Assembly: GCA_963812945.1 (NCBI GenBank) | Contig: CAWEXD010000001.1 | Span: 1-31,922 of the forward strand | DNA: 31,922 nt | Direction of reading: 5' to 3' | Origin: DASRDR01 sp963812945 [NCBI: uncultured Candidatus Rokubacteria bacterium] | Lineage (GTDB): Bacteria; Methylomirabilota; Methylomirabilia; Rokubacteriales | In this document: positions 2,522-28,176 of the stretch, in pieces | Numbering within the stretch: position 1 is the first letter of the stretch | Layout: each line of letters begins with the position of its first letter | Made by a program: the position numbers and the translations under genes | The notes under the pieces: generated by a model | The model's input: the letters and a program-made list of their open reading frames with translations, nothing else | Told to the model about the DNA's origin: nothing | Database searches by the model: none

Positions 2522-3279
2522 TGGGGCCGGCCGCCGCCGGCGGCGCGATCGCGCGCCATCTCGGGACCGAAGAGCTCGGCCCGGCCGGCGACCAGCTGGA
2601 GAGCGAGGCCCCAGGCCCGCGCCTCGCGATCGGTGAAGCTCGGCGGGACCCGGTGGTCGTGCTTGTCCACGAACCGTCGGAGATCGTCGGCCAGCGCCTG
2701 GAGCTTCTCGCGTGTCAGGGCGACGAGCCGAGCGGCCCCCGGCCGCGACCCGCCCCGCGCCAGCGCCAGCTCGAGGTGCGGGAGACAGAGGCCGTCCGAG
2801 CCGGCGTAGGCCCCATCGAGCTCGGCGTTCCCGAGTCCGGCGAGGAGCGCGTCGAGGTCGCTCCGCTCGGCGTCGGCCACCGCGACGCAGACGGAGCACC
2901 GCGCGCGGCGAGGGCGCGACGCGCTCCCCATCGTCCGCCCGTGGCGCCCTCCGCCGACAAGCGCCCGCCAGCCGCGAAGGCCATCACGCGTCTCCACCGC
3001 CTCCGCGGTCTCGTCGAGCCACCGGCAGGCCCGCTCGACGAGCCCCTGGTAGACGATCGCCGCTCCGAGCGCGGCGTCGGGCAGCTCGCGGAGGGCGGCC
3101 GCGTGGGCGGCGCAGAAGCCCCACGCCTCCGCGAGGCGCGTCCGGGTGACGGGATCCGTCACGTGCTCCGCGACCACCGTGCCGAGGTGTCGGACCGCCA
3201 GCTCGCGCAGACACCCGCAGAGCGGGCACCCGGGGCGGGCGCAGGCCTCGACGAGACGGGCGCGGCCGTTCAGGCTCAC
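2518..3279 (-). CDS. Protein with duplicated CxxC...CxxH modules (DUF6062-like)
   Basis: This 253-residue protein has no signal peptide or membrane segment. It contains two similar cysteine/histidine modules: CPLC (Cys18, Cys21) followed by GFCAAH (Cys56, His59), and CSVC (Cys128, Cys131) followed by GLCLPH (Cys165, His168). The spacing is nearly identical (35 and 34 residues), which indicates an internal duplication of a zinc-ribbon-like or other metal-binding unit. The pattern resembles DUF6062-type proteins, but that assignment is tentative. The GTG start at 3279 forms a GTGA overlap with the stop of the cytochrome gene, and its own stop overlaps the BtpA start the same way. Co-translation with the sulfite dehydrogenase genes suggests a role in cofactor handling, metal supply or thiol chemistry; this is inference. 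Confidence 0.72.
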   Translation of the reverse strand: MSLNGRARLVEACARPGCPLCGCLRELAVRHLGTVVAEHVTDPVTRTRLAEAWGFCAAHAAALRELPDAALGAAIVYQGLVERACRWLDETAEAVETRDGLRGWRALVGGGRHGRTMGSASRPRRARCSVCVAVADAERSDLDALLAGLGNAELDGAYAGSDGLCLPHLELALARGGSRPGAARLVALTREKLQALADDLRRFVDKHDHRVPPSFTDREARAWGLALQLVAGRAELFGPEMARDRAAGGGRPQ

Positions 3280-3572
3280 GGCGCCAGGCGGGTCACGAGG
3301 TATTCGAGGATGAGCGGGCGCGTCTCGGGCGTGATCGGCGCGCCGTAGGCCACCATGCGGTCGACGATCGCCTCCCACGTCGCCCGGTCGAGCCGCTGCT
3401 GGGCGACCATCTCCGCGCTGTGGCAGGGGATGCAGGCCCCCAGCACGAGCGGCATGTGCTCCCCTGGCGGCAGCGGGTTGGCCGACTGCGCGGGGGACCG
3501 TCCGCCCGCGAGCCCGACGGCGAGGCCCGCGACCAGCGCCACGAGCATGACGGCGGCCGGGTTACGCCACAT
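3276..3572 (-). CDS. sorB: Small mono-haem cytochrome c, likely sulfite dehydrogenase subunit
   Basis: A 98-residue protein with an N-terminal hydrophobic export segment (residues about 7-23) and a single haem c attachment motif CIPCH (Cys47, Cys50, His51). Met73 in the C-terminal helix is a candidate distal axial ligand. Small c-type cytochromes of this size encoded next to a periplasmic molybdenum sulfite oxidase are the electron-accepting SorB subunit in Starkeya-type sulfite dehydrogenases. The gene begins inside the 3' end of the sorA-like gene (11-base overlap), which supports a stoichiometric complex. Haem binding is directly supported; the SorB label rests on context and size. Confidence 0.82.
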   Translation of the reverse strand: MWRNPAAVMLVALVAGLAVGLAGGRSPAQSANPLPPGEHMPLVLGACIPCHSAEMVAQQRLDRATWEAIVDRMVAYGAPITPETRPLILEYLVTRLAP

Positions 3573-4728
3573 TCACCCGGACGGCGTGGATCACGTTCCA
3601 GCGGTAGCCCTGCGGGTCGCGCGGCCGGCTCGCCGGCTGGTGGCGCCCGAGCGAGTCGCTGGCCCGCGCCATGACCGTGTGCGCCCCCGGCGGCGCGGTC
3701 CAGCCGAGCTCGAAGCGGCGCCACGCGTAGCGGTGTTCCGCGCCAACCAGATTGGCGGCCTTCCAGCTCTGCCCCCCGTCGGTCGACACGTCGACCGCGA
3801 CCACGGTCCCCTCGCCCGCCCACGCGAACCCGGTCACCGTCTGGGACCCGGCCGTGAGCGAGGCGCCGTCCGCCGGCGCCACGACGATCGACTTGCACTC
3901 GACCGACTGGAGCGAGTACGTCTGGTTCGGATCGTCCACGCGCGGCGACCGGTAGCTCCGCGCCATGAACGGGCCGGCCCACTCCTGGTCGGCCAGTGTG
4001 AGCTTGGTCAGCCACTTGATCGAGGCCGAGCCGACCCAGCCCGGCACGAGGAGGCGCGCCGGCCCGCCGTGGAGATGCGGCACCGGCTGGCCGTTCATCT
4101 CCAGCGCGATCATCGTGTGGGGGTCCATCGCCTTCTGGATGGGGTGGCTCCGGACGAAGTCCGGCGCCTGGGGCGTCGGCGGCGTGTCGTTCCCGTCGGG
4201 GATGACGTGGCGCGCCGTCGCCCGCGGCCGCGCGAGCTGGAGGACGTCGGCCAGCCGCACCCCGCGCCACACCGCGGTCCCGACCGCCCCGTTCTCCCAC
4301 TGGAGCCCCGGCGCCGGGGGCTTGTGGAAGCTCCGGCCGTTACCGGCGCACTCGAGCGTGATGGTCTGGGTGACCTGCGGGAGGCGCCGGAGGTCGTCGA
4401 GGCGCAGCGTCAGCGGGTTCTCGACCTCGCCGTCGACGGTGAGGGCGTACGCCGCCGGGTCGACGACCGGCCCGTCGTAGTTGTTCCGGACGAAGAAGAG
4501 GTCGTTCGGCGTGACGTCGCTCGTGAGCTCCCGGAGCGGCGTCTCGAGGTTGATGGGGCGCGGGCTCCGAAGGATCAGCTTGTCCTTACCCGGGACCGGG
4601 GCCGCAGGCGCCGCCGTCTGGGCGCGCACCGGCAGCCCGGCGCCGAGCAGCGTCGCGGCGGCGCCGACCTGGACGACGAAGGCGCGGCGGGAGACACCCT
4701 CCTCGAACGCGTGTGACCGATCGCTCAT
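3562..4728 (-). CDS. sorA: Tat-exported molybdenum sulfite dehydrogenase catalytic subunit
   Basis: The 388-residue protein starts with a twin-arginine signal (SRRAFV, Arg14-Arg15, then a hydrophobic stretch to about residue 37). The sulfite-oxidase-type molybdopterin domain follows, with the molybdenum-ligating cysteine in TLECAGNGR (Cys127). The C-terminal Mo-co dimerisation domain (VSTDGGQSW ... HTVMARASD) is complete. No haem-binding domain is fused, so electrons should pass to the small cytochrome encoded immediately downstream. The likely reaction is sulfite plus water to sulfate in the periplasm. SoxC is homologous, but no SoxD or other sox gene is present, which favours SorA. A GAGGAGG ribosome site precedes the ATG. 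Confidence 0.88.
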   Translation of the reverse strand: MSDRSHAFEEGVSRRAFVVQVGAAATLLGAGLPVRAQTAAPAAPVPGKDKLILRSPRPINLETPLRELTSDVTPNDLFFVRNNYDGPVVDPAAYALTVDGEVENPLTLRLDDLRRLPQVTQTITLECAGNGRSFHKPPAPGLQWENGAVGTAVWRGVRLADVLQLARPRATARHVIPDGNDTPPTPQAPDFVRSHPIQKAMDPHTMIALEMNGQPVPHLHGGPARLLVPGWVGSASIKWLTKLTLADQEWAGPFMARSYRSPRVDDPNQTYSLQSVECKSIVVAPADGASLTAGSQTVTGFAWAGEGTVVAVDVSTDGGQSWKAANLVGAEHRYAWRRFELGWTAPPGAHTVMARASDSLGRHQPASRPRDPQGYRWNVIHAVRVNVA

Positions 4729-5634: not shown

Positions 5635-6034
5635 ACCGGTCCCACCAGCCAGCCGCCGGCGCGATCTGCTCCACGACGTCGATCCAGACCCCGGCGGGAT
5701 CGAAGAGGCCAAAGCGGCGCTGGCCGAACGGCTCGTCTCGGAGCGCAAGCGCGAGCGGGGCCCCGTCCTGAACGAAGCGCGCGTACTCGGCCCGCGCATC
5801 CGCGACCTGGAACTCGAGACACATCCCCTGACCGCTGAACGGCTCGGGCCCCGGCGGCGCCGACGGATGGCTCGGGTGCATGAAGGCGAGGCTCGCCCTC
5901 CCCGCACCCGCGCTGAGCAGGACGAACCAGGTGGCCTCGAAGACCACCCCCAGGCCGAACCAGCGCCGGTAGAAGTCCCGGCACCCGGTCAAGTGCTCGG
6001 TGACGACGATCGGATAGAAGTCCTGAAGCTGCAT
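5609..6034 (-). CDS. VOC (glyoxalase/bleomycin resistance) family protein
   Basis: This 141-residue protein has the vicinal oxygen chelate fold pattern of two beta-alpha-beta-beta-beta units: FYPIVVTEHLTGCRDFYRRWFG, shortened here to its core DFYRRWFGLG, then CLEFQVAD and FGLFDPAGVWIDVVEQI. The family includes lyases, dioxygenases and resistance proteins, and the sequence does not identify a substrate. Metal-ligand candidates include the glutamates of CLEFQV and DVVEQ; a classical first-strand histidine is not obvious, so it may be a binding protein rather than a metalloenzyme. A GGAGGGG ribosome site precedes the ATG, and a TACAAT -10-like box lies at 6059-6064. Confidence 0.85.
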   Translation of the reverse strand: MQLQDFYPIVVTEHLTGCRDFYRRWFGLGVVFEATWFVLLSAGAGRASLAFMHPSHPSAPPGPEPFSGQGMCLEFQVADARAEYARFVQDGAPLALALRDEPFGQRRFGLFDPAGVWIDVVEQIAPAAGWWDRYAVATPEA

Positions 6035-6058
6035 CGATCCCCTCCGGGCTCGATGTCG

Positions 6059-6064
6059 ATTGTA
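6059..6064 (-). promoter_or_regulatory. -10-like box upstream of the VOC gene
   Basis: The minus strand reads TACAAT here, five of six matches to the -10 consensus, about 25 bases before the start codon. No good -35 is seen at 16-18 bases, so this is a weak promoter call. Confidence 0.3.
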
Positions 6065-6194
6065 TCGGACGCCGCGCGGACAGGCACGCGGGGGGCCCGA
6101 GCACGCGTCACTATCCTCATCGCGGGCGGCCGCTTCACCGTGTTCGGCCTTCGGATCATTGTTTCAGAACATTTACGCCTCACTGTCGCTGTGA

Positions 6195-6209
6195 ACTGCC
6201 GCGGGCAGT
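6195..6209 (-). terminator. Small hairpin after the chromate operon
   Basis: ACTGCC and GGCAGT arms surround a 3-base loop about 15 bases past the stop of the beta-propeller gene. No T-tract follows. It may contribute to transcript end formation, but evidence is only the inverted repeat. The rest of 6035-6223 shows no gene. Confidence 0.25.
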
Positions 6210-6223
6210 CGACGGCGACGCCG

Positions 6224-7150
6224 TTACGCCCGCTCCTCGTAGACCGCGGCACGATGACTCGCGGGCAGGAACGCGCAGACGAGGTGCCGCGCGGCGTCGA
6301 GCGACAGCGTGTGCGCGCCCGGCTCGGTGGGAATGATCTCGTGACGCCGGAGTGGCGCCGTATCGAACACGTCGATCACGCCGGGATCCCCGATCGCGAC
6401 GTAGAGGCGGCGCAGGCCGGCATTCAGGAACACGACGTCGGGCACCCCGCCGATGGGCTCGGCCCTGAGAATCGTGCTGCTGTCCGCATCGAGTTCGAGC
6501 AGGACGCCGGCATCGCAGGCGCAGTAGAGGCGGCGCCGGGCGACATCGATGTCCAGGCCGTGGGGGCCCGCCTGCGGGATCGGGGCGACTCGTCGGATCC
6601 CGACCGGATCGCCGGCTTCGATGAGAACGATCTGCGGAGGATCCGCGATGTTCACGTGAAACGCATCGGCCACGGCATCGTAGACGGTCCACCGCGTTCG
6701 GCCCGCCACGGGAACATCCGTGAGGTGCTTCCGGGCGTGGAGGTCAACGATCGAGACCGTGTACGAGCCGCGAACGGCGGGGTCACCGACGTGGGCGACC
6801 AGGAGCCGCCCGCGTCGCGGATCGTAGGCGAGCCCATTGGGCCGCACGCCGACGGCGATTTTGTCGACGGTGGCCCCACCATCGGGACGGAAGAGTCCGA
6901 CCGTGTTCTCACCCCGGTTCGACGTGACAATGAGCTCCAGCTCGGACGCGACGAGGGCGCCGGCCACTCCTGTCAGGTTTTCAATCGAGCCGAGGTACGT
7001 CCGTATCCCGCCATCGATGACGTCGACCGCGTCGTTTGCGGTGTGGGCCACGTAGACGCGGCCCGTGGGCTCGTGGACGGCGGCATGGTCGAACCCGCCG
7101 GACTTGGCATGCGCGGGCAACTCGACGAACCCCAGCCGCCGGAGCGGCAT
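6224..7150 (-). CDS. YncE/YVTN-type beta-propeller protein
   Basis: A 308-residue protein of repeated beta-propeller blades with the typical pattern of a strand, D/N-x-V and RLYVA: GRVYVAHTANDAVDVID, RRGRLLVAHVGD, RRRLYCACDAGVLLELD and RRLYVAIGDPGVIDVFD. Such YncE-like or surface-layer-like propellers bind ligands or partner proteins. No signal peptide is seen, so the protein should be cytoplasmic, unlike periplasmic YncE. The start chosen (ATG at 7150) lies one base after the stop of the ChrB-phosphatase fusion (TGACATG), which indicates translational coupling and a linked role. It is the last gene of the chromate operon. No enzyme activity can be inferred. Confidence 0.82.
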   Translation of the reverse strand: MPLRRLGFVELPAHAKSGGFDHAAVHEPTGRVYVAHTANDAVDVIDGGIRTYLGSIENLTGVAGALVASELELIVTSNRGENTVGLFRPDGGATVDKIAVGVRPNGLAYDPRRGRLLVAHVGDPAVRGSYTVSIVDLHARKHLTDVPVAGRTRWTVYDAVADAFHVNIADPPQIVLIEAGDPVGIRRVAPIPQAGPHGLDIDVARRRLYCACDAGVLLELDADSSTILRAEPIGGVPDVVFLNAGLRRLYVAIGDPGVIDVFDTAPLRRHEIIPTEPGAHTLSLDAARHLVCAFLPASHRAAVYEERA

Positions 7151-7151
7151 G

Positions 7152-7973
7152 TCATCGCCCTGCAGCGAGGTCCGCGACCAGCCGCTCGACGTTCGCCACG
7201 ATGCGGTCACGGGCCGTCGAATAGCCATCACTGACCGCTGGCACGTCCCACTGATCCACTCGCTGGCCCTTGGCCGGGGCGATATCGCATCCGAAGCTGA
7301 TCACGCGCGTCGCGCTCTCCAAGTCATAGAGGGTGACGGGCCGCGGCCGACTGGGAGTCGCGCGCAGGCCCTCACCGGCGAGGCCTTTGACCGCGCCGGG
7401 GGCGAGCTCCGAATCCGGCTCGGTCCCCGCCGCCACCGCGTCCATCCCGAGACCCCCCGCCGTGGCGAGGCGGCGGAAGTGCGCGGCTCCGATCACGCTC
7501 TTCGCCGCGCCATGGAGACACACGAACAGCACCCGCGGCCGTGGTTTCTCGGAGACCGTGGTCCGACAGAACGCGTAGAGCGCGTCATAGAGCGGGAACT
7601 GATGGGCCATGTTGTCGAAGTCGTCGCGGCTCGTGGCCTGAAATCCGGTCGCCGCCGCATATAGCCCGGCCGACTCTGGCGTCAAGGCGCGGTCGTCCGT
7701 GTCGGCGCCCCGGACGATGCGCGCGAGCATGCCGAGCGCGGGATCCGCTAGATCATACCGCTCCACGAAGGCATCGAACGAGCACTGGGGCCCATGATGC
7801 CCCAGCTCGACATTCGGGATGTCGTACGGGATCGCGTGGTCACGCTTCGCCACGTCCAGAACCTGATTCGCCGGGACGAAGAGGAAGTCCGGCTCCGCAT
7901 CGATGAAGCGGGAGATCAGCCACGGACAGGCAATACGGTCGACACGCGCACGCTCACGGGTGATCCACTTCAT
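7152..7973 (-). CDS. ChrB-domain / LMW phosphatase (ArsC-like) fusion protein
   Basis: This 273-residue protein joins two domains. Residues about 1-135 match the C-terminal domain of chromate resistance protein ChrB (VDRIACPWLISRFID). Residues about 146-270 resemble low-molecular-weight protein tyrosine phosphatases and thioredoxin-type arsenate reductases (VLFVCLHGAAKS, then DQWDVPAVSD near 240-249). In the phosphate-binding loop, Cys152 is followed by five residues and then Lys158 instead of the nearly invariant arginine. The acidic loop is present. The ATG has an AGGAG site that overlaps the stop codon of chrA, 9 bases upstream. The product may bind or reduce an oxyanion such as chromate or arsenate; activity is uncertain given the Arg-to-Lys change. 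Confidence 0.85.
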   Translation of the reverse strand: MKWITRERARVDRIACPWLISRFIDAEPDFLFVPANQVLDVAKRDHAIPYDIPNVELGHHGPQCSFDAFVERYDLADPALGMLARIVRGADTDDRALTPESAGLYAAATGFQATSRDDFDNMAHQFPLYDALYAFCRTTVSEKPRPRVLFVCLHGAAKSVIGAAHFRRLATAGGLGMDAVAAGTEPDSELAPGAVKGLAGEGLRATPSRPRPVTLYDLESATRVISFGCDIAPAKGQRVDQWDVPAVSDGYSTARDRIVANVERLVADLAAGR

Positions 7974-7982
7974 GGCACGCTC

Positions 7983-9095
7983 CTATCTCAGCGAGACGAT
8001 GATGAGGCCCGCCGCGGCGCCAGCCGCGATGAGCAAAGGTTCGGGGACCTTGAACCGCCACGTAATTCCTAGGACCGCGAGAGCGATGAGCAGCGTCGGG
8101 ACGTCGACGATCGCACGACGGGCCAGCACGAAGCACGCCCCGGCAATGGTGCCGGAGGCCGCAGCCGTCACGCCGGCCACGAACGCCTTGACTTTGGCGT
8201 TGGCGCTGATGCGATCGAAGAACGGGAACGGGATGACGACAAACAGGTACACCGGCAGGAACACGCCGACCGCGGCAGCCACCGCTCCGGGGAAGCTCGC
8301 GACGAGATAGCCGATGAACGCCACCGTGATGACGATGGGGCCGGGTGTCAGCATCGCGACCGCGACGGCGTCCAGGAACTGCTGGTCGTTCAGCCAGCCG
8401 TACTGCTGGACCACACCCCCGTAGAGAAACGGCACGATCGCGAGGCCGCTGCCGAAGATGAACGCGCCGGCCTGGGCGAAAAAGACCAGGATCTTGACAA
8501 GGAGCTCAGGCGTAGCCGCCACCGCGAGACACACAGGCGCCGAGCGCTTGAGCCACGCGGGTGGAGCCTGGGCGACGATCGCGACGACTCCCGAGAGCAG
8601 GAACAGCCAGGCGATCTCGGACTCGGTCCAGGCGGTGACAACGGCCATCACCGCGAAGATCACCCATTGCAGCTTGTCCTTGGCCATCGTGAGCTTCGCC
8701 AGCTTGTACGCGGCGAGCACGATGATGCCAATCACCGCCGCGCCCACGCCGTAGAACGCGGCCTGCATCCACGGAAGTCCGCCGAACCGGACGTAGAGCC
8801 AGCTGATCGCCAGGGTCATGACGAACGACGGGAGGATGAACGCGAGCGCGACCAGCGTCGCGCCGGCGATCCGCGAATGGACGTACCCGAGACAGATCGC
8901 GAGCTGCGCCGCCAGGGGACCCGGTGCCAGCTGGGAGAGGGCCAGCGACTTCATGTACTCCTCTTTGGTGAACCAGCCCCGGTGCTCGACGAGATCGCGC
9001 TGCATGTAGCCGACCAGCGCCACCGGCCCCCCGAATCCCAGGCTGCCCAGGTAGAGGAAGTATTTCAGCAACGCCCTCGTCGTAGGGCGGGTCAT
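7983..9095 (-). CDS. chrA: Chromate transporter ChrA
   Basis: A 370-residue integral membrane protein with the two homologous halves of long-chain ChrA transporters (CHR family). The N-terminal half carries FLYLGSLGFGGPVALVGYM and SQLAPGPLAAQLA; the C-terminal half carries FIFGSGLAIVPFLYGGVV and MLTPGPIVITVAFIGY. ChrA effluxes chromate from the cytoplasm using the proton or membrane gradient, preventing entry of Cr(VI) into sulfate pathways. The gene lies within the chromate operon, 105 bases after the OCD-family gene and 9 bases before the ChrB fusion gene. The start ATG is preceded by a G-rich site. Family and role are secure. Confidence 0.95.
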   Translation of the reverse strand: MTRPTTRALLKYFLYLGSLGFGGPVALVGYMQRDLVEHRGWFTKEEYMKSLALSQLAPGPLAAQLAICLGYVHSRIAGATLVALAFILPSFVMTLAISWLYVRFGGLPWMQAAFYGVGAAVIGIIVLAAYKLAKLTMAKDKLQWVIFAVMAVVTAWTESEIAWLFLLSGVVAIVAQAPPAWLKRSAPVCLAVAATPELLVKILVFFAQAGAFIFGSGLAIVPFLYGGVVQQYGWLNDQQFLDAVAVAMLTPGPIVITVAFIGYLVASFPGAVAAAVGVFLPVYLFVVIPFPFFDRISANAKVKAFVAGVTAAASGTIAGACFVLARRAIVDVPTLLIALAVLGITWRFKVPEPLLIAAGAAAGLIIVSLR

Positions 9096-9200
9096 CCCCG
9101 ACCCCCATCGCCGCAGTCGGGCGCTACTCGCAGATGTCGTTCTGCACCGAAGCGACCACGACGCTCACGACTCGCCGCGTTCCTCCCGCCGCCAGCTGGC

Positions 9201-10181
9201 TCAGTCATCGAGCTTCACCTCGGTGCCGTGTCCATTGGCGACGGCCCGTTCGTAGACGACGATGGCGGCGGCGACGTCCTGCAACGCGGTCCCCGAGCTG
9301 TCGAAGACCATGATCTCGTCGTCGTGCGTTCGGCCTTGCCGCCGGCCTGCGACCACATCCGAGAGCTCGGCATGGACGCTCTCCCGGGTCATCAGTCCGG
9401 CCGCGAGCGCGTGCTGGAGCTCGCCGATCTCCGCGCATTGCTCGAGCACGTCGACCACGAGCGTCGACGATGCGACGAGCGCCGGCTCCAGCTCTTGCTT
9501 GCCCCGATTGTCAGCCCCGACGGCAGCGATGAAGGTGCCGGGCGCAATGTCGTCTCGGAACACGAACGGGCGGCGCGATGGGGTACAGGTCACGCACACG
9601 TCGCTCTCGCGCAGAGCGGCGTGAAGGTCCGTCGCGACCGAGACGCGGATCCCGAGGTCCGCCTGAGCCCGCGCGGCGAGACCCTGCGCGCGCGCAGGAT
9701 CGGCGTCAAGCACCCACACACGCTCGAGTGGCAGCACCGCGGCGATCGCGGCCAGCTGAATCTCCCCCTGGACACCGCATCCCACGACCGTGGCGGATCT
9801 CGAGTCGCGTCGCGCCAGGTACTTCGCCGCGACCGCGGTGGCCGCCCCGGTCCGCAGGGCTGTCACGCTGGCCGAGTCCATCATCGCGAGGGGCTCGCCG
9901 GTCTCCGCATCTGCGAGCACGACGGTCCCACGAATGGTTGGCAGGCCGAAGCGTTGTGGGTTGTCCGGAAAGTTCGCATTCGTCTTGGCCGCGAAGTAGC
10001 TGCGTGAGCCAACGAGGCCGGCCGCCTTGATGTGGAAGCCGCCGCGTGCGGCGGGAACTCCGAGCACGCCCGGGCCCAGCGTGCGCCCCTCGGCATGGGC
10101 ACGGAACGCGTTCGCGACCGCTTCGATGCAGTCGTGGAGGCTGAGGAGCTCGAGGACCTGGCGGCGCGACAGAATGCGCAT
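9201..10181 (-). CDS. Ornithine cyclodeaminase / mu-crystallin family protein
   Basis: This 326-residue protein has the NAD(P)-binding motif GCGVQGEIQL following ATVV, and substrate-site features of the OCD/mu-crystallin family (GGFHIKAAG, KTNANFPDNP, ALRTGAATAVAAKYLA). Family members deaminate or reduce amino and imino acids (ornithine cyclodeaminase, alanine dehydrogenase, ketimine reductase), and some act only as binding proteins. Length and domain order are normal. It sits between the SOD-rhodanese gene (45 bases upstream) and chrA in the same orientation, so it is probably an operon member. It may supply proline or NAD(P)H-linked redox balance during chromate stress, but the substrate cannot be read from sequence. 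OCD proteins are not part of the classical chr set. Confidence 0.88.
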   Translation of the reverse strand: MRILSRRQVLELLSLHDCIEAVANAFRAHAEGRTLGPGVLGVPAARGGFHIKAAGLVGSRSYFAAKTNANFPDNPQRFGLPTIRGTVVLADAETGEPLAMMDSASVTALRTGAATAVAAKYLARRDSRSATVVGCGVQGEIQLAAIAAVLPLERVWVLDADPARAQGLAARAQADLGIRVSVATDLHAALRESDVCVTCTPSRRPFVFRDDIAPGTFIAAVGADNRGKQELEPALVASSTLVVDVLEQCAEIGELQHALAAGLMTRESVHAELSDVVAGRRQGRTHDDEIMVFDSSGTALQDVAAAIVVYERAVANGHGTEVKLDD

Positions 10182-10226
10182 GCTACGCCTTCGGCGAGAT
10201 GGCGTTGTGGCGCGTCGCGTCGATGT

Positions 10227-11192
10227 TCATGCGTCGCGCTCCGGCGGCCGCATCGCGCGGGCGCCGCCGGCGGCATACCAGGCGGAGAGGCCGCCGCGGA
10301 CGTACCGCGCGTCGAGTCCACGGGCCCGCAGCACCCGCGTCACGTTGCAGCCGACATGAAATCCGTAGGCGCAATAGACCGCGACCGGCTGGTCCGGGGA
10401 CAGCTCTCCAACCCATTGTTCGACGCGGTCGGGATCGTGCCAGACCGCGCCGTCCATGAGATCCACGGTCCGGGAGATGTGGTGGCGGGGCCGGGCATCC
10501 AGGATCTGGACGGGCTCGCCTTTCGCCAGCCGGGCGGCGAGCTCCTCGACGGACAGTGATGGCAGGCTTCCATCGGAGGGGTCTTCCCGCGGAAGCGGCG
10601 CCTCGCCCTGCACGGCGGCCATCCGGGCGACCACCGCCGACCAGTTGATGTTGCGCATGAAGGCGTCGATGTAGGCCGTGACGTTGGCGCCGAAGTCCTG
10701 GTGGTACGCGTGCTCATACATGTCGAGCACGAGCACAGGGGCCGCATCGATCGCCGCCTGGACGTGATCCGCGGCCATCAGGTTCCAGAACCGCTTCGCC
10801 GGCCTGGAGTACGTCAGCGCGACCCAGCCGGACCCATGGGCCAGGGACTGTCCCGCCCGCACGAACTCCCGGCGCCAGGCCCAGACACTCCCGAAGTGCT
10901 CCTCGAGGGTGGCCGCCACTGGATCCGGAATCTTGTTCCCTTCCCCGCCCAGGTTGCCGAAGTACAGCTCGTGCAGCGCGACGGAGCCCATTGCCGCCAG
11001 CTCTTCGCGCTTCAGGGCGCCGAGCTGGTAGTCGGGCGCTCCGGCATCGAGGTTGGCGAGCTCGGTCCGGACCGCGTTCAGTGTACGGACTGCGCTCCCG
11101 TAATGGTGCTCGTAGTGACTGACCAGCAATCGTTCGGAGAGCCCGTTCAATGTCCAGGGTCGAACTGCAATCGGCGCGATGGCTTGATGCAT
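10227..11192 (-). CDS. chrC: Fe/Mn superoxide dismutase - rhodanese fusion
   Basis: The 321-residue product has an N-terminal Fe/Mn superoxide dismutase domain (about 1-190). All four metal ligands are visible: His26 (SHYEHHYG), His74 (LHELYFGN), Asp157 and His161 (LDMYEHAYH). A C-terminal rhodanese domain (about 212-315) has its candidate active-site cysteine at Cys274 (VYCAYGFHVG). SOD genes in chromate operons are called chrC and protect against superoxide formed during Cr(VI) reduction. The rhodanese adds a sulfur-transfer or thiol-based oxyanion function. The start ATG at 11192 is chosen because AGGGAG lies 9 bases upstream; an in-frame ATG at 11213 has no ribosome site. It lies about 90 bases after chrB. 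Confidence 0.9.
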   Translation of the reverse strand: MHQAIAPIAVRPWTLNGLSERLLVSHYEHHYGSAVRTLNAVRTELANLDAGAPDYQLGALKREELAAMGSVALHELYFGNLGGEGNKIPDPVAATLEEHFGSVWAWRREFVRAGQSLAHGSGWVALTYSRPAKRFWNLMAADHVQAAIDAAPVLVLDMYEHAYHQDFGANVTAYIDAFMRNINWSAVVARMAAVQGEAPLPREDPSDGSLPSLSVEELAARLAKGEPVQILDARPRHHISRTVDLMDGAVWHDPDRVEQWVGELSPDQPVAVYCAYGFHVGCNVTRVLRARGLDARYVRGGLSAWYAAGGARAMRPPERDA

Positions 11193-11282
11193 CGGTAGTG
11201 TCTCCCTATCCATGGGTCAGTGATTCGCGAGGCCTGGTGAGGCTGCCGGCGCGAGGCGATGCACGTTCATGCGCGGCAAGGG

Positions 11283-12260
11283 TCAGTCCGATCCTCGCGC
11301 GGTGTCCGACTCCGCGTCCGTGTAGGCGGCATAGAGCCAGTCGAACAGCGCGAGCGCACGCTTCAGGAGCTCATCGTCGTCGCGGCTCTGCTGCTTGGCC
11401 CCGGCGAGGAGCGTCGCCACCCCGGCCGCGTCGGCGACCGGGATCCCGCCGACGTCGAGGTAGTGGACGAGATCGCCCACGCGCCGCAGCGCGTCGTCTC
11501 CCTCGAGATCGAAGCTCTTCAGGAACACCTCGAACGTGACACGAGACTCGATGTGGGTGAATGGCGCGCCGTCGAAATCGAACCCGACCGCATGGGTCGG
11601 CAGGTCCGCCGGGCTCTCGAGCCACACGAACGAGGCGGCCCGATCGATGTGCCGTTTTATGAGCCAGGCGCAGGCGAGACGGTCCACCCACGGCGCCTTG
11701 CGGGTGGCCCACACCCGGCGTTGGTATTGGCCGCGGTCCAGCCGAGAGATGGGCCCGCGCTGGCCGTGCGGCTCCCCGGGGCTGAGAATCTCCGTCGCGA
11801 CCATCTCCATCTCCAGCACGGCGGCCTCGGCCTGCGCCTTGGTCATCCCCGGAAAGAAGTCGGTCGCAACAATGGCCTCGAACTGCCGACGCAGCGTCCG
11901 GCTCTGACGCCGGACGGCGGCAGGATCCCGCCGCGTGAAGCGCTTCCGCGCCTGGCTGATCTCTTCAACGAGCGCCGCGTAGTCCTTCGTCCGATCAACG
12001 AGCGCCCGTAGCGCCTCGGCCTGGCCCTCGTCGCGCGGCTCGACGCGCAGCACGTGCGCACTGCCGCCCGCTTCGGTGATCTCGGCCGCGAGGCCCGCGA
12101 GGACTTCCTGCAGGTCCGGGCGCTCGGGCAGGACATACACGCCGTCGCGCAGCACGCCCGCTCCCGTGGCCTTCAGGGCCCGCCAGACGCGCATGCGCTG
12201 GGTCGCGTTCTCTGTGGGAAGGCTGGTAACCAGCTGAAGCCACGCTGGGAAGTCATGCAT
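11283..12260 (-). CDS. chrB: Chromate resistance protein ChrB (chromate-sensing regulator)
   Basis: The 325-residue protein matches full-length ChrB. The N-terminal region (FPAWLQLVTSLP, RVWRALKATGAGVLRDGVYVLP) resembles the PaaX-like winged-helix part. A linker helical region (KRFTRRDPAAVRRQ) follows, then the C-terminal ChrB domain from about residue 187 (VDRLACAWLIKRHID ... VHYLDVGGIPV). In Ochrobactrum tritici, ChrB is a chromate-sensitive transcriptional regulator needed for full resistance. The start ATG at 12260 is chosen from family alignment. It has no ribosome binding site and lies 10 bases after a -10 box, so a near-leaderless message is likely. It heads the operon, consistent with autoregulation through repeats at 12279-12321. 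Confidence 0.92.
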   Translation of the reverse strand: MHDFPAWLQLVTSLPTENATQRMRVWRALKATGAGVLRDGVYVLPERPDLQEVLAGLAAEITEAGGSAHVLRVEPRDEGQAEALRALVDRTKDYAALVEEISQARKRFTRRDPAAVRRQSRTLRRQFEAIVATDFFPGMTKAQAEAAVLEMEMVATEILSPGEPHGQRGPISRLDRGQYQRRVWATRKAPWVDRLACAWLIKRHIDRAASFVWLESPADLPTHAVGFDFDGAPFTHIESRVTFEVFLKSFDLEGDDALRRVGDLVHYLDVGGIPVADAAGVATLLAGAKQQSRDDDELLKRALALFDWLYAAYTDAESDTARGSD

Positions 12261-12270
12261 CACGTAGCGA

Positions 12271-12299
12271 ACTCTACTGATATGTAGGTATCGTGTCAA
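12271..12299 (-). promoter_or_regulatory. Promoter of the chromate operon
   Basis: On the minus strand a perfect TTGACA (12294-12299) is followed by a 17-base spacer and TAGAGT (12271-12276, four of six). The expected transcription start, near 12264, is only about 4 bases before the chrB ATG, and no Shine-Dalgarno sequence is present. The surrounding DNA (12261-12340) is strikingly AT-rich compared with the whole window. Confidence 0.65.
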
Positions 12300-12321
12300 T
12301 GATATTTGTAAGATATTGTAG
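12279..12321 (-). promoter_or_regulatory. Three-copy direct repeat, candidate ChrB operator
   Basis: Plus-strand copies read GATATGTAG (12279-12287), GATATTTGTA (12301-12310) and GATATTGTAG (12312-12321). Their starts are 22 and 11 bases apart, which matches whole helical turns, so all copies face the same side of DNA. One copy lies between the -35 and -10 and two lie upstream of the -35. A regulator binding here could block or recruit polymerase. ChrB is the obvious candidate; this is inference. Confidence 0.5.
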
Positions 12322-12869
12322 TTAAAGTGTTTTATCCATCGATTGTCGGGTCCGGCGGCGAGCGTCGTGGTCCCAACAGGGCTGGTCGGGGTCCGTGAAA
12401 GTGGGGCATCGGGTACGCAGTGCGACACTCGAGCAGAACAGCGTTGGTGCTACCGAAAGACCCTCCGCGGAGGAGTCAGGGTTCAGAGCGAGGTCACCCT
12501 CGGGGCGTCACCATGCCCATCAGCGAGGCAAGTCCACGACGCGGGCTCGGCCGGTGACCAGCCTCCTCGTCCGCGCTCTCACGCCGGTCGCCCGACGCTC
12601 GGCGGGCGAGAGCGCCTCCGAGACGAGTCAAGGAGGCCCGCGACCGCAAGCAACGGCGGGCACGCGAACGCATCGACCGTGCGTCACGCGGCATCATCGT
12701 GCGTCTCCCGCGCTCGCTCACCCACCAGCCGTGGAGCCGTTCGTGGCGACGCGCGTGACTCGCCTCCGGCGCGCTCGTGTGATGCATCAGTTGTTACATC
12801 GAGTGCTCCACCCTGTTTCACGTGTCAGATCCTCCGGGAATGCCTGGTGGCTCGCGTATACTCCGGGGC
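12322..12869. other. Long region without a recognisable gene
   Basis: This roughly 550-base stretch separates the chromate operon from the divergent metallohydrolase gene. No frame gives a recognisable protein. A start-less open plus-strand frame at 12558-12758 encodes a highly charged segment (KEARDRKQRRARERIDRASR) and could be a gene remnant. A perfect palindrome CCTCCGCGGAGG lies at 12462-12473. TATACT at 12857-12862 could be a -10 box placing the transcription start at the GTG at 12870, but no -35 is evident. Confidence 0.4.
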
Positions 12870-26979: not shown

Positions 26980-28176
26980 TCAGTTGCCCAGGCTCTTCAC
27001 GACTGCGAGCCAGAGCGCGAGCAGCTCCCGGCCCGGGTCGCCCACGTCGCGCGCGGCGGTGTGGATCAGCACGAGCTTCGTCCTCGGGTCCACGAACACG
27101 GCCTGCCCCCGCAGGCCGCGCAGCACGAACTGCCGATCCGGACCGGGCACGATCCACGTCTGGTAGCCGTAGCCGAAGAACGAGCTCGTGTTCCCGGGCT
27201 CGAACTGCCGTGCCGCCGGCGTGGTCGCGGCGCGCACCCAGCCCGCCGGGATGATCGGCCGCCCGTCGAGCGCGCCGTCGTTCGCGAGCAGCATGCCGAG
27301 CCGCGCGTAGTCGCGCACCGTGGCGTTGACGGCGAAGTACGCCGCCTCGTAGCCCCCCTTGTCCACGGCCCAGGAGGCGTCGGCCTCGGCGCCCATGGGC
27401 TGCCAGATCTTCGCCGACAGGTACTCGGCCAGCGGCTTGCCGGTGGCCGCGCGCAGCACCAGGCCGAGGACCTGCGTCTCGGCCGACGAGTAGTAGAATC
27501 GCTCGCCGGGCGCGCGATCGCGCGTGCGGAAGGGCATCACGGTCGCGGCTCCGCCCTCGCTTTCTCCCAGCACCGACAGCCGCGCGAGCGTTGCGACGTC
27601 GTCGGCGCCGCTGTAGTTCTCGGTGAACCGGACGCCGGAGGACATGGTCAGCAGGTGGCGAATCGGCGTCTCGCCGTAGGGGGTGCCCGTGAGCTCCGCG
27701 ACGTACTGCTCGGCACGATCGTCGAGCGACCGGATCCGGCCCTCGGACAGCGCCACCCCGACGAGCATGGCCACGATCGTCTTGGCCATCGAGTAGGAGT
27801 TCATGCGGTGCTCGGGCGTGCGGTCGTACTGGTACCGCTCGGCGAGTATGGTGTCGCCCTTCAGGAGCAAGAGCCCCGTGGTGCGGTTGCGCGCGAGGTA
27901 GTCGTCCAGCCCGCTGTTCTGTGACTCGTACGTGTAGCGGAACGCCGGCTCGGCCGCGGCACGCTTCAGGGGACGGGCCGCCGGAGCCCGGGCCACCTTG
28001 CGCGCCGGGAAGGCCTCGTCGAAGCGGCTCACGAGACCGACCAGGCACCGCAGCTCCGGCCGCAGGGAGGCCGGGCAGAGCGGATAGCCCTCGTTCTTGC
28101 CCAGCACCGCCTCGTCCGGCGCGGCGAACGACCCGGCGGCGAGGAGGACGATCGCGAGAAGGACGATGAGTCTCAC
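26980..28176 (-). CDS. Exported class C beta-lactamase-like serine hydrolase
   Basis: A 398-residue protein with a Sec signal peptide (LIVLLAIVLLAAGSFAA). The catalytic SxxK motif is SMAK (Ser129, Lys132) and the YxS/N motif is YSS (Tyr229-Ser231). The KTG-type third motif is not canonical; LRGLRGQ occupies a similar place. This fits the beta-lactamase-related family (PF00144) of esterases, peptidases and amidases rather than a true AmpC. Two cysteines near the N-terminus (about 34 and 44) might form a disulfide. It follows the sugar-permease gene by 54 bases in the same direction and may be co-transcribed. Hydrolysis of an ester or amide in the periplasm is the likely activity. Confidence 0.9.
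   Translation of the reverse strand: MRLIVLLAIVLLAAGSFAAPDEAVLGKNEGYPLCPASLRPELRCLVGLVSRFDEAFPARKVARAPAARPLKRAAAEPAFRYTYESQNSGLDDYLARNRTTGLLLLKGDTILAERYQYDRTPEHRMNSYSMAKTIVAMLVGVALSEGRIRSLDDRAEQYVAELTGTPYGETPIRHLLTMSSGVRFTENYSGADDVATLARLSVLGESEGGAATVMPFRTRDRAPGERFYYSSAETQVLGLVLRAATGKPLAEYLSAKIWQPMGAEADASWAVDKGGYEAAYFAVNATVRDYARLGMLLANDGALDGRPIIPAGWVRAATTPAARQFEPGNTSSFFGYGYQTWIVPGPDRQFVLRGLRGQAVFVDPRTKLVLIHTAARDVGDPGRELLALWLAVVKSLGN

Follow-up and report, generated by a model that had tools for sequence, protein, structure and literature searches.

The 31,922-nucleotide (nt) stretch of DNA analysed here (the window; contig CAWEXD010000001.1 of assembly GCA_963812945.1, from an uncultured Candidatus Rokubacteria bacterium) carries six consecutive genes, which an initial annotation had described as an expanded chromate resistance (chr) operon with non-classical members. 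This locus raises the question of whether the six genes constitute a genuine chr determinant, and what its less familiar components might do. To judge by gene families, operator match and linkage, the operon is a real, conserved chr-type determinant. Its set outside the classical chr parts comprises two modules, an OCD-family protein and an ArsC-like domain, and two familiar chr genes are present as fusions: chrC with a chrE-like rhodanese and chrF with the ArsC-like domain. We consider it likely that the locus is a chromate-inducible detoxification operon, related in rearranged form to the chr1 determinant of plasmid pMOL28.

Gene content and comparison with known chr determinants

The six genes are the following (aa, amino acids; SOD, superoxide dismutase):

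11283..12260, minus strand: chrB, chromate-responsive regulator, 325 aa (Pfam ChrB_N and ChrB_C)
10227..11213, minus strand: chrC::chrE-like fusion, Fe/Mn SOD and rhodanese, 328 aa (Pfam Sod_Fe_C and Rhodanese)
9201..10181, minus strand: OCD/alanine dehydrogenase-family NAD(P)-type protein, 326 aa (Pfam OCD_Mu_crystall)
7983..9095, minus strand: chrA, chromate efflux transporter, 370 aa (TIGR00937, Pfam Chromate_transp)
7152..7973, minus strand: chrF::ArsC-like fusion, 273 aa (Pfam ChrB_C and LMWPc)
6224..7150, minus strand: chrZ/chrK-like beta-propeller, 308 aa (weak YncE/YVTN-type NCBIfam matches, conserved chr linkage)

These open reading frames (ORFs) run head to tail on the minus strand from 12260 to 6224, each beginning with ATG and ending with a stop codon, and are separated by 69 nt (chrB-SOD), 45 nt (SOD-OCD), 105 nt (OCD-chrA), 9 nt (chrA-fusion) and 1 nt (fusion-propeller). 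The arrangement given in the initial annotation, with six same-strand genes spaced by 1-105 nt downstream of one promoter, was thus re-found in full, and most of the domain families named there were matched in Pfam. A Pfam/NCBIfam scan named five of the six products (ChrB, SOD plus rhodanese, OCD/mu-crystallin, ChrA, and ChrB_C plus LMWPc), whereas the propeller gave no Pfam match above the cut-off and only YncE/YVTN-type NCBIfam matches below it. ChrA scored 358.5 bits against TIGR00937 (cut-off 171.7), which places it among the CHR-family transporters.

The chr1 genes of pMOL28 from C. metallidurans CH34 are arranged as chrZYPNOF1ECA1B1 opposite chrI (PMC11647585). The window proteins share 48% identity with ChrB1, 60% with ChrA1, 48% (SOD half) with ChrC, 35% (rhodanese half) with ChrE, 57% with ChrF1 and 26% with the YncE-family protein, the names ChrF1 (RMET_RS31100) and ChrZ (RMET_RS31075) having been set by matching the printed to the annotated gene order. 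In pMOL28, chrC and chrE are separate genes and chrF is unfused, whereas in the window both are fused, the gene order is changed and an OCD gene is added, which is without counterpart in the pMOL28 operon. No equivalents of chrI, chrO, chrN, chrP or chrY are present among the window's six genes. For the pMOL28 genes, one account reports chrO, chrN, chrP, chrY and chrZ as chromate-induced, with the remark 'no data given' (PMC2864759); in a metal-mix experiment described elsewhere, chrP, chrN, chrO, chrF1, chrE, chrC, chrA1, chrB1 and chrI were up-regulated, but not chrY and chrZ (PMC11647585).

The identity to ChrF1 concerns the first half of the protein previously called a ChrB-phosphatase fusion, which matches the 140-aa pMOL28 protein over 139 aa. 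Because of this match, chrF is present in fused form, and the earlier statement that the operon has no chrF was wrong. Similarly, the label of non-classical members holds for the OCD protein and the ArsC-like domain, but not for the rhodanese, which is of the ChrE kind, or for the propeller, which is of the ChrZ/ChrK kind. In the open-access literature, we found no description of OCD or ArsC-like parts in chr operons, which is a weak negative.

Across ten aligned SOD-rhodaneses, His33, His81, Asp164 and His168, which we take to be the SOD metal ligands, are invariant. Ala41 is also invariant and is aligned opposite a Tyr of 1coj, so the activity of these proteins may differ from that of ordinary SODs. 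In a plasmid collection, 109 records gave matches, and in 16 of them at least 80% of the protein is covered at a single site, in some cases by two adjacent genes. Five proteobacterial loci (L013, L014, L017, L018 and L020, from Comamonas, Roseateles, Paraburkholderia xenovorans LB400 and Acidovorax) likewise encode a single-ORF SOD-rhodanese (43-45% identical to the window protein) followed by ChrF, which in contrast to the window protein is unfused. Cleavage of chromium-glutathione complexes has been suggested as a role of ChrE (PMC10581121).

Accessory modules and their conservation across the phylum

Scanning genome contigs with the fusion protein identified 38 loci, the best of which (77-78% identity) are in Rokubacteria metagenome-assembled genomes. 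In one of these loci (L001), a single strand carries the genes for ChrB, OCD (internally gapped), two ChrA proteins in succession, the fusion, the propeller and the SOD-rhodanese. In a survey of 95 genomes of the phylum, counted at the E-value limit of each search, matches were present in 70 genomes for ChrA, 66 for the fusion protein (P0005), 61 for OCD, 53 for ChrB, 52 for the SOD-rhodanese (most of the matches listed being the SOD part alone at 30-39%) and 30 for the propeller. The best phylum matches of the five operon proteins other than ChrB reach 74-86%, and these proteins are nearest to Rokubacteria among the sequences compared. Linkage was counted over 88 OCD rows and 38 propeller rows (the two pieces of each G001 gene merged), with chr anchors taken for contigs bearing an OCD or propeller match, where very weak anchors were possibly missed. 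As expected from the proposed operon, homologous loci do retain OCD, propeller and fusion genes near chrA, chrB or chrF. The idea of a single system also gained from these comparisons, since Rokubacterial relatives hold the genes together and the sole promoter found bears an operator common to other chrB genes.

The OCD protein is homologous over its full length to the archaeal alanine dehydrogenase 1omo (E 1e-61), and its score against the archaeal alanine dehydrogenase model TIGR02371 (271.9 bits) is below the cut-off of 409.15. Among the positions presumed to be functional in alanine dehydrogenase, the OCD protein retains Lys66, Arg110 and Asp224, and carries Val39 and His50 in place of Lys41 and Arg52 of 1omo. 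Given these replacements, the substrate is probably not alanine. His50 and Lys52 are invariant in nine chr-linked OCD proteins. The OCD matches in the phylum split into 13 sequences with at least 57% identity, from 13 separate genomes, and 75 with at most 43%. All 13 close relatives are located within 1.9 kb of chrA, chrB or chrF, whereas none of the other 75 is within 2 kb of a chr gene and only two are within 6 kb (Fisher p 9e-14 at 6 kb, a nominal value, the genomes being related). In a tree of 30 rows (the window, 12 chr-linked and 17 other sequences, with L083 left out because of an in-frame stop), a branch with 100/99 support sets the chr-linked rows apart. Among 936 plasmid records with OCD matches none reaches 60% identity, and the best of the eight rows listed has 41.4%.

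In the fusion protein, the ChrF/ChrB_C domain (residues ~1-140) retains Arg6, Arg13 and His59 at places matching the chromate-response residues of ChrB, and is followed by a domain with the arsenate reductase/low-molecular-weight (LMW) protein tyrosine phosphatase fold (~145-273), which contains Cys152-X5-Lys158 and Cys229. Its Pfam LMWPc score (24.5 bits) exceeds the gathering cut-off of 23.2. The catalytic loop of LMW protein tyrosine phosphatases is Cys-X5-Arg, whereas in the window loop (FVCLHGAAKS) Lys158 replaces the phosphatase Arg. Twenty sequences were sampled from at least 33 phylum matches to the ArsC-like half only; Lys is found in 19 and Arg in one, and the second Cys (Cys229) in all 20. 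Thioredoxin-linked ArsC enzymes have three redox cysteines, and the ArsC-like half, with two conserved cysteines (Cys152 and Cys229), differs from this class. In the C. glutamicum enzyme Cg_ArsC1', the redox cysteines are Cys88, Cys162 and Cys166 (PMC6514093).

The fold of the fusion protein was predicted from 43 sequences with a pLDDT (predicted local distance difference test score) of 94.1; a 7-sequence version gave a pLDDT of 40 and was not used. Structure comparison revealed that residues ~143-273 of the model resemble arsenate reductases and LMW phosphatases, including 3t38 (Cg_ArsC1'; Z 18.2, root mean square deviation 3.8, 159 residues aligned, extending beyond the domain), 1y1l (Z 17.4, 1.7, 116 residues) and 3rh0 (Cg_ArsC2; Z 16.6, 2.4, 120 residues). 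With Z differences within 1 treated as ties, the predicted fold would fit a reductase and a phosphatase equally well. The top three hits in a sequence search are arsenate reductases (3t38, 4e-10; 1y1l, 1e-5; 3rh0, 0.0035). Cg_ArsC2 of C. glutamicum has the same Cys-X5-Lys spacing, and thus the Lys alone is no sign of a dead enzyme. The window domain shares its fold with Cg_ArsC2 and Cg_ArsC1' at 21-24% identity, but differs from them in being fused to ChrF within a chr operon. Among the matches listed, nine phylum genomes carry the fusion (in one interrupted by the contig end), and in L008 and L011 the two halves are separate neighbouring genes. None of 118 plasmid records matching the ArsC-like half reaches 60% identity; most of the best 20 of these 118 are annotated as arsenate reductase ArsC and come from Actinobacteria. 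Stand-alone Cys-X5-Lys ArsC-like copies were observed at L031:7992-8384 (G011) and L033:7800-8213 (G012) in a common non-chr neighbourhood with, by eye, rhodanese-ThiF, cupin, DegP-like and glycolate oxidase-type genes. The nearest ChrA match, among the matches listed, is 10.7 kb away in G012 and 10.2 kb in G089, with none on the G011 contig.

The propeller is 26% identical to the pMOL28 YncE-family protein (E 7e-23 in an 11-protein set) and 26.8% identical to the YncE-family protein ChrK of Arthrobacter sp. FB24, which likewise lies beside ChrB- and ChrA-type genes. These identities (26-27%), together with its chr linkage, assign it to the ChrZ/ChrK type as a distant relative. In FB24, chrK is reported to be chromate-induced, and loss of chrJ, chrK and chrL to lower resistance (PMC2751784). 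No signal peptide was seen by eye on the window propeller, in contrast to the pMOL28 protein and to FB24 ChrK, for which a signal sequence is described (PMC2751784). An alignment of 13 propellers revealed the invariant residues His14, Asp21, His22, His36, Arg79, Asn105, Arg151, Arg153, Asn167, His197, Asp238 and His280, several of which are common to the pMOL28 and FB24 proteins, and this sharing suggests a ligand site. Propellers with at least 50% identity are within 1 kb of chrA, chrB or chrF in 25 of 28 cases, and those with 26-30% are within 4.1 kb in seven of ten; this linkage rules out that the propeller is a random neighbour. The other three close propellers have no such anchor on their contigs. 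The first (G004:C109) adjoins the other half of a split fusion, the second (G069:C104) adjoins a DUF1259 protein related to pMOL28 ChrY, and the third (G061:C309) is incomplete, on a contig of 3.5 kb. A link between chrY and chrL has been described (PMC7060636).

Two further propellers were observed in other settings. At L195:3065-5682, on a contig with no chrA, chrB or chrF matches, a chr-type propeller is located beside a DUF1259 (ChrY/ChrL family) protein and, by eye, a molybdate-type-looking periplasmic binding protein. On a plasmid of Pannonibacter phragmitetus BB (L191:72-1433), a strain from soil under a chromium slag heap, a ChrB-domain protein adjoins a 41% propeller relative, which ends short at a Tn3 transposase.

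Promoter, operator and ChrB

Two control elements were predicted upstream of chrB:

12271..12299, minus strand: sigma70-like promoter TTGACA-17 nt-TAGAGT, before chrB (promoter scan)
12264..12277, minus strand: putative ChrB operator GTAGAGTTCGCTAC, three bases 5' of the chrB ATG (13/14 match to GTAGAGATCGCTAC)

This is the only sigma70-like promoter found in 5900-12600 (mean in shuffled sequences, 0.5), and its -10 hexamer lies within the putative operator GTAGAGTTCGCTAC. In O. tritici, an inverted repeat overlapping part of the -10 has been described (PMC3817168). The exact word GTAGAGATCGCTAC is found upstream of chrB in six loci (L013, L014, L017, L018, L020 and L032), and the site upstream of pMOL28 chrB is GTAGAGATCTCTAC, with one mismatch. 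With at most one mismatch, the operator occurs once in the whole window and not at all in 100 shuffles. As a control, the 300 nt upstream of the ChrB match were inspected in 26 loci. The operator is present with 0-1 mismatch in seven of the nine loci with a ChrB of 43% or more identity to that of the window (the pattern being defined by the six exact loci themselves, of which L017, L018 and L020 are near copies), versus none of the 17 loci with at most 36% identity, where the best site has five mismatches. Several of the low-identity ChrB genes (L007, L008, L037 and L036) are preceded by another short palindrome-like word (GTATCAAnnGTTAC, GTAACCATAGTTAC), which is perhaps the operator of another ChrB type. 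The predicted -10 and operator end just three bases before the chrB ATG, and hence the transcript could be leaderless.

Five residues of O. tritici ChrB (Arg18, Arg23, Arg180, Arg187 and His229) are reported as essential for DNA binding or chromate response (PMC3817168). All five are matched in the window ChrB by Arg22, Arg27, Arg187, Arg194 and His236, as placed by constant offsets and spacing. From the nine other positions tested in O. tritici, Arg175, Arg196 and Arg252 match as well, whereas Arg182, Arg195, Cys213, Ala241, Gly244 and His258 differ (constant offsets). A sequence search for a related solved structure found none at E <=1. The operon thus has a ChrB regulator and, at its promoter, a putative operator recognized from sequence. 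The window ChrB is 74% identical to that of G093, 30-38% to other long phylum matches and 43-48% to the proteobacterial ChrBs compared. On these values, set against the 74-86% of the other five proteins, at least the regulator appears to have been exchanged, and it is different from that of most Rokubacterial chr operons seen.

Two other genes of the window were noted outside the operon. A sulfite oxidase-family molybdopterin protein (3562-4728) has a twin-arginine-like export signal by eye and is followed by a 98-aa ORF (3276-3572). A 398-aa protein (26980-28176) carries a Pfam Beta-lactamase (serine type) domain.

Proposed function and alternative explanations

In the proposed mechanism, ChrB would sit on the operator overlapping the -10 and free the promoter of the presumably co-transcribed genes when its C-terminal domain binds chromate, the likely inducer and substrate. 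ChrA would export chromate. The ChrF half, which is without a DNA-binding domain and keeps the ChrB chromate-response residues, may keep chromate close to the ArsC-like half, in which the Cys152/Lys158 loop could act on the oxyanion via thiol chemistry. The ChrC::ChrE-like protein would remove the superoxide of chromium redox cycling and may split chromium-thiol adducts. The propeller could be a ligand-binding or enzymatic accessory like ChrK and ChrZ, and the OCD protein may be an NAD(P)-linked dehydrogenase of the imine/amino-acid type that acts on a different kind of substrate from alanine dehydrogenase. A more specific version, which we regard as unlikely, is that the ChrF half binds chromate and the ArsC-like Lys-loop half either reduces it or passes it on to a low-molecular-weight thiol, with the OCD protein supplying or recycling a reduced metabolite; such a transfer would resemble, by analogy, the treatment of arsenate by mycothiol-linked ArsC.

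Several observations weigh against the proposed detoxification mechanism. The OCD clade is present in 13 of the 95 genomes, compared with 70 for ChrA. The operator is lacking from two loci with similar ChrBs (L019, 48%, five mismatches; L022, 43%, three mismatches). The rhodanese scored 72.7 bits against the ChrE model NF033833, below the cut-off of 120, and for this reason is named ChrE-like only. Since Lys158 occupies the position of the phosphatase Arg, the ArsC-like domain may lack catalytic activity, and the L031 and L033 copies away from chr genes indicate that its family is not chr-exclusive. A putative repressor function has also been assigned to ChrF (PMC7060636), and chrF2 deletion reportedly left resistance unaffected (PMC2751784), so the role given to ChrF above is a guess.

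If the locus were instead a chr-type system for a different oxyanion (arsenate, selenate, molybdate or similar), with the ArsC-like domain as a true arsenate reductase, this would account for the arsenate reductases among the best sequence and fold matches of this domain and for the Cys-X5-Lys spacing of 3rh0. We consider this alternative quite improbable, since no ars transporter or ArsR was found among the six genes and the eight window neighbours scanned, the ArsC-like domain is beside ChrA or ChrF in most loci examined, and both the response residues of ChrB and the chr operator are retained. In addition, the FB24 chr genes are reported to respond little to arsenate, although chrB-Cterm was 5.3-fold up (PMC2751784). 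It is more improbable still that, in a core chr operon (chrB, chrC::chrE, chrA, chrF), the OCD protein, the ArsC-like domain and the propeller are functionally unrelated passengers. In favour of this reading, neither the OCD protein nor the ArsC-like domain has an equivalent in the pMOL28 operon, and some stand-alone ArsC-like copies are not chr-linked, but the linkage of the OCD clade (13/13 versus 0/75 within 2 kb of a chr gene) and of the propellers (25/28 within 1 kb), as well as the recurrence of the ChrF::ArsC-like fusion in nine genomes, stand against this explanation.

Recent horizontal acquisition of the whole block seems fairly unlikely. The divergent ChrB fits such a transfer, as does base composition: the operon genes have a GC content of 0.678 (0.82-0.88 at third codon positions), compared with 0.712 for the other called window ORFs. 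The lower GC noted earlier was therefore borne out as a value, but not as a sign of transfer. GC at 19-20, 24-26 and 28-31 kb of the window is about as low or lower, so it does not establish horizontal transfer, and the codon-usage distances of the operon genes (0.21-0.31) fall within the spread seen for the other called ORFs (0.16-0.55; ORFs were called mechanically, some flanking ones possibly in the wrong frame, and for chrB and the propeller the count began at an upstream GTG). A 743-aa protein encoded in the flank shares 63% identity with its match in G093 and was found in four of the 17 genomes searched; together with the affinities of the five operon proteins other than ChrB, this fits a Rokubacterial host.

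For chr biology, the detoxification operon proposed here offers direct biochemical handles on chr accessory proteins, in the form of the ChrF::ArsC-like fusion and a dehydrogenase clade that is chr-only in the surveyed phylum. If the ChrF::ArsC-like protein does process chromate as outlined above, an efflux operon would thereby gain enzymatic chromate reduction.

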